Below are positions 6,951 through 47,255 of a stretch of DNA of 64,000 bases, one piece after another; within the stretch, counting starts at the first letter, position 1, and each line of letters starts with the position of its first letter. Under the pieces are notes generated by a model. That model ran no database searches and was not told the origin of the DNA. It saw nothing but the letters and a program-made list of their open reading frames with translations. The stretch is from Alphaproteobacteria bacterium. GTDB taxonomy: Bacteria > Pseudomonadota > Alphaproteobacteria > Micavibrionales > Micavibrionaceae. Location of the stretch: positions 19,017 to 83,016 of the forward strand of contig RZZS01000003.1 of NCBI GenBank assembly GCA_009929775.1, in the 5' to 3' direction. A program made the position numbers and the translations under genes.

Positions 6951-8258
6951 ATGAGCAATTTGTTTGAGGCCGAGACAAAGGAAGACGCCGCGCCACGCCC
7001 GTTGCCGGACCGGCTGCGGCCGAAGGCGCTGGAGGATATCGTCGGGCAGGACCATCTCGTCGGTTCGGGCGGGCCGGTGCGCAAGATGGCCGATTCCCGC
7101 CGGGTGTCCTCGATGATCCTCTGGGGCCCGCCCGGCACCGGCAAGACGACGCTGGCCCGGATTTTGAGCGCGCACACCGACCTTCACTTCGAGCAGATAT
7201 CGGCGATTTTCTCCGGCGTGGCTGATCTGAAAAAAGTTTTCGAATCCGCCCGGCTGCGCCGCCGGAACGGGCAGGGAACCCTTCTTTTTGTGGACGAAAT
7301 CCATCGTTTCAACAAATCCCAGCAGGACGCCTTTCTCCCTGTGGTCGAGGATGGCACGATTACCCTGATCGGCGCGACGACTGAAAACCCCTCGTTCGAG
7401 CTGAACGCCGCGCTTCTCTCGCGCTGCTCTGTTTTTGTTCTGAAGCGTCTGGACGACGGGGCGCTCGAAACGCTGCTTGCGCGCGCGGAAAGCGACGCGG
7501 GCCGCGATCTGCCGCTTGAGGACGCGGCGCGGGAGATGCTGAAAGCGATGGCCGACGGCGACGGGCGCTATGCACTCTCGCTGGCCGCGCAAGTGTTCGA
7601 GGCAAGCGAAAATTCGCCGAACGAACTATTGAACGCGGACGCGCTCGCCTCGCTCGTCCAGCGCCGCGCCCCGCTCTACGACAAGGCGGACGAGGGGCAT
7701 TACAACCTGATTTCCGCCCTGCACAAGAGCGTGCGCGGCTCGGACCCGGACGCGGCGCTTTACTGGTTCGCGCGCATGCTGGCGGGCGGCGAGGACCCGC
7801 GCTTTCTCGCAAGACGTATGACGCGCATGGCGGTGGAGGACATCGGCCTCGCCGACCCGCAGGCGCTGCCGCAATGCATCGCGGCCTGGGAGGCGTTCGA
7901 GCGCATGGGCAGTCCGGAGGGTGATCTGGCGCTCGCGCAGGCGCTCGTCTATCTCGCGAGCGCGCCGAAATCGAACGCGGTCTACAAGGCCGAAAAGGCG
8001 GCTAAGCGCGCGGCAAGGGAAACCGGCTCCCTGATGCCGCCGATGCACATCCTGAACGCCCCGACGAAGATGATGAAAGAGATCGGCTATTCCGAAGGCT
8101 ACAAGTACGACCACGACATGCCGGACGCCTTCTCTGGACAGAATTATTTTCCCCATGAAATGGGGCGAAAGATCCTCTACGAGCCGGTCGAACGCGGCTT
8201 CGAGCGCGAAATCAGGAAGCGTCTCGATTACTGGGCGAAGCTTCGGCGGGAGCGGTAG
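6951..8258 (+). CDS. rarA: Replication-associated recombination protein A (AAA+ ATPase)
   Basis: RPKALEDIVGQDHLVG, WGPPGTGKTTLARIL Walker A, LFVDEIHRFNKSQQDAFLPVVE, IGATTENPSFELNAALLSR. Confidence 0.95.
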   Translation: MSNLFEAETKEDAAPRPLPDRLRPKALEDIVGQDHLVGSGGPVRKMADSRRVSSMILWGPPGTGKTTLARILSAHTDLHFEQISAIFSGVADLKKVFESARLRRRNGQGTLLFVDEIHRFNKSQQDAFLPVVEDGTITLIGATTENPSFELNAALLSRCSVFVLKRLDDGALETLLARAESDAGRDLPLEDAAREMLKAMADGDGRYALSLAAQVFEASENSPNELLNADALASLVQRRAPLYDKADEGHYNLISALHKSVRGSDPDAALYWFARMLAGGEDPRFLARRMTRMAVEDIGLADPQALPQCIAAWEAFERMGSPEGDLALAQALVYLASAPKSNAVYKAEKAAKRAARETGSLMPPMHILNAPTKMMKEIGYSEGYKYDHDMPDAFSGQNYFPHEMGRKILYEPVERGFEREIRKRLDYWAKLRRER

Positions 8259-15142: not shown

Positions 15143-17005
15143 TTATTTTCTCCCGAACAACCGTTCAATATCAGAGAGTTTTAGCTCAATATAGGTCGGC
15201 CTTCCATGGTTACATTGGCCCGAAAGCGGGGTTTTCTCCATTTCTCGCAGCAGATGGTCCATCTCTTCCTGCGTAAGCCTTCGGCCAGAGCGTACCGAAC
15301 CGTGGCAGGCCATGCGCGAGAGCACCGCGTTAATGCGCTCCTCAAGCCCCTGGATCTGGCCCTGTTCTTCGAGCTCGTCAACAAGGTCTTTCAGAAGTTT
15401 CGTAACATCGATGCGACTGCCCAGTATCGCCGGAACCGCGCGCACGGCAATCGCTCCGGCCCCGAATGGCTCGATTTCGAGGCCGAGCTGTTGCATCGCA
15501 CCCGCTTGCTCAAGCAGCGCTTCGCTTGCCTCACGGCCAAGCTCGACAATCTCGGGTGTCAGCAGCCCTTGCGAGGCCACGCCTCCGTCCTGAAGCTGCG
15601 CCTTGAAACGCTCATAGGTCAGTCGCTCGTGCGCGGCGTGCTGGTCGACGATGACCATGCCACGCGAGGTTTGCGCGATGATGTAATTTTCATGCAACTG
15701 TGCCCGCGCCGCGCCGAGCGGGTAGTCCTGCGGCTCTTCCGGTTGCGGGGGCGGTTCGTCGGCGCGGGCCGAGGGCGGCGCGTCGATGGCTGGCGCATAG
15801 AATGCGTGGGCCGCTTCGGCAAGATTGCCGTAGACGGGCGCTTGCGCGTGCGATTGTAAGGGGCGCGGCGTGAAGAACGAGGACGGCGCGCTCGCATGCG
15901 GGCGGCTCCGTAGCGTATTCAGCGCGGCGTAACTAACGCTGCTCGAGGCGCGGTGGCCGTGTTCGTGCAACGCCTTTTTGATCGCCGAGACGATCAGCCC
16001 GCGTACAAGCTGCGGGTCGCGAAAGCGCACTTCGGCCTTGGCCGGATGGACGTTGACGTCGACTTCCTCGCAGGGCAGGTCGACATGAAGGACCGCCATC
16101 GGGTGGCGGTCGTGGCTGATGACGTCGGAATACGCCCCGCGCAGGGCTCCGTTCAACAGCTTGTCGCGCACCGGGCGACCGTTGACGAACAGATACTGGA
16201 ACTGCGAAGTGCCGCGATTCAGCGTCGGCAGGCCGGCGTAGCCCGAAAGCCGCACGGTCTCGCGCACTTCCTCGATCATCATCAGATTGTCGCCGAAATC
16301 TTCGCCGAGAATCGCGGAAAGGCGCTCGGCCGGGTCGCTCGTGGATGGGAGCTTGAGATTCGTCTTGCCGTTATGGATCAGTCTGAAGGACACCCGCGGA
16401 AACGCCATGCCAAGCCGGGTGACGACATCCCGCACGGCGGCGAACTCAGCTCGCTCGCTCTTGAGGAACTTAAGCCGGGCGGGCGTGGCGTAGAACAAAT
16501 CCCGTACCTCGATCTGCGTGCCCTTCGGATGCGCGCAGGGCGCGGGCTCTCCCTTGCGCCCGCCTTCGACGGCGATCTGCCAGCCGCTCCCTCCGTCGGG
16601 GACACAATAACTTTTTGTGTCCCCGATGTTCCCCTGGGGACACAAAAAGTTATTGTGTCCCCGATGCTCCTTCGTCCGGATCGTCAGGCGGCTCACCGCC
16701 CCGATGGACGGCAGCGCCTCGCCTCGGAAGCCGAGGCTTGCAATGTTGAGAAGATCGTTACCCGGAAGCTTGGAGGTCGCATGCCGGTCGAGCGCGGCGG
16801 AAAGCTCTTCGCGGCTCATTCCACACCCGTCGTCCGAAATGACGATCGCGCTCTTTCCTCCGTCCCGTACGTCGATTTCAATGGTCGAGGCCCCGGAATC
16901 CAGCGCGTTCTCGACAAGCTCCTTCACAGCCGCCGCGGGTCGTTCGATGACCTCACCGGCGGCAATCTGGTTGACGAGCGTCTCGGGCAAATGACGAATG
17001 CGCAT
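15143..17005 (-). CDS. mutL: DNA mismatch repair protein MutL
   Basis: MRIRHLPETLVNQIAAGEVIERPAAAVKELVENALDSGA; DDGCGM; GFRGEALPSIGAVS; C-terminal ACHGSVRSGRRLTQEEM and QCNHGRPTYIEL. Carries an in-frame palindromic insertion at 16598-16662. Confidence 0.96.
   Translation of the reverse strand: MRIRHLPETLVNQIAAGEVIERPAAAVKELVENALDSGASTIEIDVRDGGKSAIVISDDGCGMSREELSAALDRHATSKLPGNDLLNIASLGFRGEALPSIGAVSRLTIRTKEHRGHNNFLCPQGNIGDTKSYCVPDGGSGWQIAVEGGRKGEPAPCAHPKGTQIEVRDLFYATPARLKFLKSERAEFAAVRDVVTRLGMAFPRVSFRLIHNGKTNLKLPSTSDPAERLSAILGEDFGDNLMMIEEVRETVRLSGYAGLPTLNRGTSQFQYLFVNGRPVRDKLLNGALRGAYSDVISHDRHPMAVLHVDLPCEEVDVNVHPAKAEVRFRDPQLVRGLIVSAIKKALHEHGHRASSSVSYAALNTLRSRPHASAPSSFFTPRPLQSHAQAPVYGNLAEAAHAFYAPAIDAPPSARADEPPPQPEEPQDYPLGAARAQLHENYIIAQTSRGMVIVDQHAAHERLTYERFKAQLQDGGVASQGLLTPEIVELGREASEALLEQAGAMQQLGLEIEPFGAGAIAVRAVPAILGSRIDVTKLLKDLVDELEEQGQIQGLEERINAVLSRMACHGSVRSGRRLTQEEMDHLLREMEKTPLSGQCNHGRPTYIELKLSDIERLFGRK
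16598..16662. repeat. Palindromic element, GGGGACACAATAACTTTTTGTGTCCCC inverted repeat, inside mutL
   Basis: 27-bp arms (16598-16624 and 16636-16662) that are exact reverse complements, 11-nt spacer. Confidence 0.95.
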
Positions 17006-17117: not shown

Positions 17118-17185
17118 GGGGACACAATAACTTTTTGTGTCCCCAGCGTTAGATAATCGGGGACACAAAAAGTTATTGTGTCCCC
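17118..17185. repeat. Second copy of the same palindromic element, intergenic upstream of mutL
   Basis: Identical 27-bp arms (17118-17144 and 17159-17185), different 14-nt spacer. Confidence 0.95.
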
Positions 17186-17201: not shown

Positions 17202-18497
17202 TCAGTCCACGATCGTGTCGTCGGTCTTTGCGAGGCTCAGCGCCATGTCGTCCATCAGCGCTCCCGTTAAATCCGCGCGGCGAAGATCGGCTTTTTCGAG
17301 GTCGGCGCCGGTGAGGTCTGCGCCCATGAGGATGGCGTCGCGAAGGTCCGCTTCGCGCAAGTCGGCATATCGCAAATCCGCCCCGCTTAGATTCACGCGT
17401 TGCAGGCGTTTCGTGTTGTCGGGGTTTTCAAAAACGAGCGGGGCGAGGTTCGCGCCGCGCAAATCGGTACGGGTGAAACGGGCGTACTTGAACGAAGAGC
17501 CGCGCAAATCGGCGTTTCTTGCGTTGCAATCCCGGAAGTCGCTTCGGTCAAGCTGGGCGCTTTGCAAATGCGCGCCTCTCAGATCCTGACTCAGAAAATT
17601 CGCACCCACGGCCTTGATCGCAGTTAACGGGTAGCTTTTTAGATTCAATATATCGCGCAGGTCGAAACCGGACAGGTCAAGCTGACGTCCGTCGCGCCCG
17701 ATCGTGCGCACCCAGAGTGTATGCTCCTGAAGCAAATCCTCAAGCGTGTCGCCGAGCTTTTCGATGTTCTCGCCCATCGCTTTTTCGGTGAGCGCTTTCG
17801 CAAGGCTCGCGCCATCGAGTTCGACCCCGTCCATTACCGCGCCTGCGATAATTGAGGCGTCGAGATTGACTTTGGAAAGGTTGCAGCCCGTAAGGTCGGC
17901 GTCGGAGAGGTTCGCGCCGTGGAAGTTGGCTTCTGCGAATTCGCCGTTGTGGATGACGACGCCGGTGAGGTCCGCGTCGCTGAAGTCGGCATGCGACGCG
18001 TGCACCTTCGACAGATTGGTTTGTGCCATACGTGCACCGCGGAAGATGGTTTTCGCGGACTGATCGCCCGGGCGCTTGCGGTCGACAATTTCGCCCTTAT
18101 CGCCGGTCTTCATGATCTTGCCCGAACGCAGGTCCGCAGAAGCCATGTCGGCCCCCTCCAGATTGACACCCGCGCAGAAGGCGCCCCGAAAGTCGGCCCG
18201 GGAGAAGTTGGCGCGCTCGAGGTTCGCATTGCGCATGTCGCACGCGAAGAACGACGTGCCGACGAAAATGCCGTGAGCAAGATCGGCGTCGACGAGGCGC
18301 GAGCCGGTAAAGTCGGCTTGGGAGAGATCTTTTCCCGCGAGCGAAAGGCCTGAAAGATCACGGAATTTCATGATCGCCCGCGCTCCGCCCTTGACGCCGC
18401 GCAGGTAGAGCGTGTGGAGCACGACGACGTCGTTGAGGTCGTCCTGCGTGACGAGGGGGAGTTCGTCGTGCTCGGGGATGTTTTCTTTTCGGGTCAT
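17202..18497 (-). CDS. Pentapeptide-repeat protein
   Basis: Long runs of A(D/N)LXX repeats, e.g. ADLRYADLREADLRDAILMGADLTGADLEKADLRRADLTG. Confidence 0.93.
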   Translation of the reverse strand: MTRKENIPEHDELPLVTQDDLNDVVVLHTLYLRGVKGGARAIMKFRDLSGLSLAGKDLSQADFTGSRLVDADLAHGIFVGTSFFACDMRNANLERANFSRADFRGAFCAGVNLEGADMASADLRSGKIMKTGDKGEIVDRKRPGDQSAKTIFRGARMAQTNLSKVHASHADFSDADLTGVVIHNGEFAEANFHGANLSDADLTGCNLSKVNLDASIIAGAVMDGVELDGASLAKALTEKAMGENIEKLGDTLEDLLQEHTLWVRTIGRDGRQLDLSGFDLRDILNLKSYPLTAIKAVGANFLSQDLRGAHLQSAQLDRSDFRDCNARNADLRGSSFKYARFTRTDLRGANLAPLVFENPDNTKRLQRVNLSGADLRYADLREADLRDAILMGADLTGADLEKADLRRADLTGALMDDMALSLAKTDDTIVD

Positions 18498-47216: not shown

Positions 47217-47255
47217 GGGGACACAAGAATTCGCTGCGCGAATTGTTATGTCCCC
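47217..47255. repeat. GGGGACA-type palindromic element
   Basis: GGGGACACAAGAATTCGC / GCGAATTGTTATGTCCCC, 18-bp arms with two mismatches. Confidence 0.85.

Follow-up and report, generated by a model that had tools for sequence, protein, structure and literature searches.

A 65-bp palindromic element that lies in-frame in mutL, within the 64,000-nucleotide stretch of DNA that we analysed (the window), is, with a probability that we put at roughly 88%, a REPIN most likely moved by a RAYT transposase encoded on another contig of the same genome, a like unit being present in rsmA.

The element in mutL and the protein that carries it

The locus comprises the following features, given in window coordinates.

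15143-17005, minus strand: mutL, 620 aa, single copy, with intact N-terminal ATPase and C-terminal dimerisation domains
16598-16662, minus strand: REPIN in-frame in mutL, two inverted 27-nt REPs with an 11-nt spacer, codons 115-136 counted from the ATG
16598-16624, plus strand: REP copy 1, GGGGACAC-11-GTGTCCCC, with loop AATAACTTTTT on the plus strand
16636-16662, minus strand: REP copy 2, the exact reverse complement of copy 1 and the first REP in coding order
17118-17185, no strand assigned: second REPIN, intergenic, two 27-nt REPs with a 14-nt spacer, after the end of the pentapeptide-repeat gene and before the start of mutL
17202-18497, minus strand: pentapeptide-repeat protein gene (assigned by eye), upstream of mutL, with 16 bp separating its 3' end and the intergenic REPIN

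The original prediction described a perfect palindromic repeat read through in-frame by mutL, and the description proved accurate: the arms at 16598-16624 and 16636-16662 are 100% complementary, the match reaching 29 nt on either side of the 11-nt spacer, and the reading frame passes uninterrupted through the element to give a MutL of 620 residues. Beyond what had been predicted, each of the two 27-nt arms is palindromic in its own right, with an 8-bp stem of GGGGACAC and GTGTCCCC around AATAACTTTTT, which makes it a REP, and the whole 65-bp element is thus a REP pair. On the coding strand of mutL, REP copy 2 is preceded by CATC. The RNA of the pair folds as a single long hairpin (-54.6 kcal/mol, z = -10.4). 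Across the element the minus-strand frame of mutL reads ...RTKEH-RGHNNFLCPQGNIGDTKSYCVPD-GGSGW..., the REPIN peptide being RGHNNFLCPQGNIGDTKSYCVP, and in either orientation the REPIN is free of stop codons in two of its three frames, a stop occurring in one only. A copy with the same arms outside the gene, which had also been predicted, is present (17118-17144/17159-17185), 112 bp ahead of the ATG of mutL.

The protein is matched over its full length by the NCBIfam equivalog for MutL (849 bits against a cut-off of 693), and a second mutL sought in the genome was not found. Alignment with homologues revealed approximately 22 extra residues at one site, absent from some 30 MutLs from the same family and order and from 32 more diverse ones, so that among the MutLs aligned the segment is unique to this one, as had been anticipated; comparison with relatives that are at most 67% identical points to an insertion into mutL. 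The extra residues fall in the linker that follows SRLTIRTK, a place at which a few residues more or less are usual among other MutLs, and structures of E. coli MutL align on either side of the insert and skip the insert itself. AlphaFold modelling of residues 1-340 gave the insert (118-137, model numbering) a pLDDT below 50, with strands 107-113 and 142-148 formed on its two sides and values above 90 in the adjoining blocks. As modelled, then, the insert is a disordered loop that joins two confidently predicted strands of the ATPase domain, and MutL is therefore probably functional, with an extra flexible loop.

Genomic dispersal and a second in-frame copy

The 27-mer occurs eight times in the window, with both strands counted, at up to 3 mismatches, and was found in none of 100 shuffled sequences. 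Genome-wide there were 49 strand matches at the same threshold and none to a reversed-pattern control. REP cores were counted in the stretches around the pattern matches; those inspected contained about 30 intact cores (0-2 in reversed-pattern controls) and six compact inverted pairs spanning 62-70 nt. Most copies lie outside recognisable conserved domains, the two REPINs in mutL and rsmA being in-frame. With the arm dispersed through the genome and relatives lacking the approximately 22 residues, the proposal that this is a mobile repeat rather than ancestral MutL sequence is upheld.

GTAG is the commonest REP tag but is not universal, another superfamily having CGTC. The tetranucleotides flanking the REPs here were CATC at 15 of 60 ends, CAAT at 8 and AATC at 5, rather than the GTAG looked for; in view of the CGTC superfamily, the result speaks for another family of tags and not against the REP nature of the repeat. 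Intact REPINs with this stem were absent from a scan of approximately 85,000 other species genomes, and no CATC-tagged REP of this type was found among 384 other genomes of the class, so far as these searches reach placing the REP family in this lineage only.

Several other palindromes were encountered in the course of these searches. Two relatives (G001 and G010) possess isolated GGGGACACA palindromes with a different loop. REP-like cores also occur within a longer repeat with flanks such as agcgattgccGGGGGCAAT and ATTGCCCnCGGCAATCGCTTGAT (L042:5352, L045:5434, L039:5035, L040:4950 and 11980, L043:5789), which is perhaps a separate, longer element. Another palindrome family, GGGGACACAATAATTCGCTGCGCGAATTATTGTGTCCCC, forms a near-perfect 39-nt hairpin at L030:1501-1539, C107:2409-2447 and C127:66233-66271 (window 47217-47255).

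Two further loci, outside the window, have REP pairs in or between genes.

Contig C89, 8475-8539 (L037:5476-5540): second in-frame REPIN, in rsmA (ksgA), near codons 4-26
Contig C72, 8542-8603 (L034): REP pair between an rsmC-like gene (assigned by eye) and a gene for an RsuA-like pseudouridine synthase

The RsmA protein begins MSSY-RGHNKFLCPQGDNGDTKSYCVP-IDGLPPLREVIA, reading IDGLPPLR after RGHNKFLCPQGDNGDTKSYCVP, while its relatives pass from a start such as VSD directly into IDSLPPLREVIA (for example, VSD-IDSLPPLR). The rsmA and mutL REPINs share orientation and frame and encode near-identical peptides (RGHNKFLCPQGDNGDTKSYCVP and RGHNNFLCPQGNIGDTKSYCVP), and their spacers are alike (AGGGGAACATC and AGGGAGACAAC). 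Once 69 nt, the pair and 4 nt more, are removed, MutL reads TKEDGGSGW and RsmA reads MSSIDGLPPLR, both resembling the relatives, and we infer that the exact inserted unit is 66 or 69 nt.

It has been cautioned that N-terminal REPs may go untranslated (PMC3733652). For rsmA this caution is weaker: past the REPIN, the next possible in-frame start is a TTG that already belongs to the conserved LPPLR motif. The ATG in this frame overlaps, as TGATG, with the stop codon of the preceding gene, assigned by eye as surA. The REPIN begins approximately 13 nt past the A of this start codon, and given that proximity and the -54.6 kcal/mol hairpin of the pair, an effect of the mRNA hairpin on rsmA translation is possible.

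At the third locus the rsmC-like gene appears to stop inside the REP pair (ALGTQ followed by the stop codon). In the frame of the RsuA-like synthase, the stretch from the REP to the S4 domain holds no ATG, GTG or TTG, and the gene would therefore seem to begin inside the REP (MCPRRETFRH...) or with an ATG on the edge of the pair.

A candidate transposase and the proposed origin of the insertions

Three RAYT genes were found in the genome.

Contig C72, 7138-7758: RAYT (TnpA_REP) gene, Y1_Tnp with an HVH motif; the same REPs as in mutL at 7121 and 7779
Contig C67, 13462-14046 (L203): second RAYT gene, flanked by its own palindrome family
Contig C4, 5146-5700 (L208): third RAYT gene, flanked by its own palindrome family

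The C72 RAYT matches Pfam Y1_Tnp (E = 3.7e-13, 50 bits over a cut-off of 23) and carries its HUH-type motif as HVH, within MPNHVHLVL. Its best NCBIfam match is REP_Tyr_transpos, the REP-associated tyrosine transposase (E = 9.6e-17), at 61 bits against a family cut-off of 80. The stop codon of the gene falls inside one of the flanking REPs. The gene lies on a 12-kb contig separate from that of mutL in a draft genome of 190 contigs. Among relatives, the nearest RAYT is that of G021, which is 67% identical and is preceded by CATCGGGGACACAATAACCATTGTGTCCCC. The palindromes beside the two further RAYTs, of the forms GGGACAGTTACTTTTT... and GGGGACGGAGTAAAA..., differ from this REP, one family accompanying each transposase.

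We propose that the nonautonomous REPIN would form a single-stranded hairpin, which the C72 RAYT, an IS200-like HUH tyrosine transposase and the most likely agent of the mutL insertion, would cleave and join, inserting it into the target. In mutL the REPIN would have landed in the ATPase domain, at a point with a beta-strand on either side, and selection would then have purged insertions that break genes. Survival of the mutL insertion would follow from an inserted length divisible by three (66 or 69 nt), from the stop-free frames and from the variable-linker site. For a unit of 69 nt, approximately 67% of the insertion points in mutL keep the frame open in both orientations, because one of the three frames holds a stop; to survive in mutL and rsmA, an insertion thus has only to fall where it is tolerated, in a loop in the one and in an N-terminal tail in the other. 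A similar unit would have inserted just past the rsmA start, and because it did so in matching orientation and frame, MutL and RsmA would carry a near-identical 22-residue peptide. The insert peptide is presumably translated and retained in the protein, and the insertion is plausibly close to neutral.

Other accounts of the same observations were considered. A true RPE-type selfish element, of a separate lineage adapted to in-frame life in protein genes, would explain why one peptide occurs in two unrelated conserved proteins with orientation and frame alike, and five of the six compact pairs come to a length divisible by three when the unit is taken as the pair plus 4 nt. However, without the two genic copies three pairs of four remain, which is not a significant excess, most REP copies lie outside recognisable conserved domains, and the anatomy of the pair, together with a RAYT flanked by the same REP, fits REPINs, all of which makes a separate lineage improbable. 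The frame-length bias itself was set aside, the sample being too small. A related extension of the REPIN reading, which we regard as doubtful, is that this REPIN lineage is evolving toward life inside genes, the pair with its 4-nt tag, of a length divisible by three, and its stop-free frames constituting a portable 23-residue disordered coding module; were it true, REPINs driven by RAYTs would have arrived independently at protein-coding selfish DNA of the RPE type.

It was also suggested at the outset that the insertion could alter the mutation rate, and one might suppose that it damages or tunes MutL and was retained in a mutator lineage for that reason. Mutators arising from REP insertions in repair genes have been proposed (PMC3733652), and the mutL mRNA bears the stable hairpin described above. 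Yet the insert occupies a variable linker as a predicted disordered loop, the full-length protein and its invariant ATPase residues are retained, the flanking fold is predicted with confidence, and the MutL branch is not long (root-to-tip 0.54 in the family tree, against a mean of 0.66), no branch acceleration being found for either MutL or RsmA; a MutS-family gene is also present in the genome. An altered mutation rate is thus unsupported, and the mutator reading quite improbable. Finally, the assembler might have joined a palindrome into mutL, given the draft state of the assembly and a contamination estimate of 3.72, but a 65-bp insert is shorter than a typical read, the frame is kept exactly, and a like in-frame event occurs in rsmA on another contig. 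An assembly or binning artefact is accordingly very improbable, and we return to the REPIN as the preferred explanation.

Relation to known systems

In-frame insertion of palindromes has been seen before in Rickettsia and in a small number of other bacteria, and the Rickettsia palindromic elements (RPEs) had been named as the closest precedent for the mutL element. This comparison holds in part: as with RPEs, a palindromic mobile element lies in-frame in unrelated proteins (here MutL and RsmA) and contributes a recurring peptide. The anatomy and the transposase are instead those of REPIN/RAYT systems, and REPs in repair genes had already been published (PMC3733652). RPEs as reviewed are some 150 bp long and fall into ten families (PMC10969869), whereas the present element is 65 bp and has a candidate transposase in the genome.

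With REPIN/RAYT systems as described (PMC3116915; PMC8266576) the element shares the inverted REP pair with a short spacer, the hairpin, the dispersal and a RAYT flanked by the same REP. It differs in having tens of copies and not hundreds, a tag that is mostly CATC instead of GTAG, and long loops of 11 nt, and at least two of the six compact pairs lie inside conserved genes, whereas known REPs are typically extragenic. Like MITEs, these are short nonautonomous elements that would be mobilised in trans; the candidate partner is an HUH enzyme and not a DDE transposase, and by eye no target-site duplication is evident.

The nearest published case is a 2013 study (PMC3733652), which describes REPs and REP dimers in coding regions, many of them in replication and repair genes (uvrA, uvrB, recB, dnaE2) and some in pseudouridine synthase genes, encoding 20-30 residues, with REP ends that give stop codons; it speculated on mutators and equated Rickettsia RPE-4 and RPE-6 with its REPs. 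The terms "mutL" and "mismatch repair" are absent from its main text, and a search for literature linking mutL with palindromic insertions returned nothing relevant. The same kind of REP dimer in conserved genes is seen here, with a REP that matches neither the GTAG nor the CGTC tag.

The mutL/rsmA case thus joins the published intragenic REP dimers, and adds to them a matched transposase gene and nearly the same peptide in two unrelated genes. It links palindromes that code for protein in-frame with an HUH transposase gene that can be identified and has flanking REPs of its own, provides one peptide module in two conserved proteins that can be assayed with and without it, and illustrates that odd peptides in proteins from draft genomes can be real insertions rather than annotation noise.
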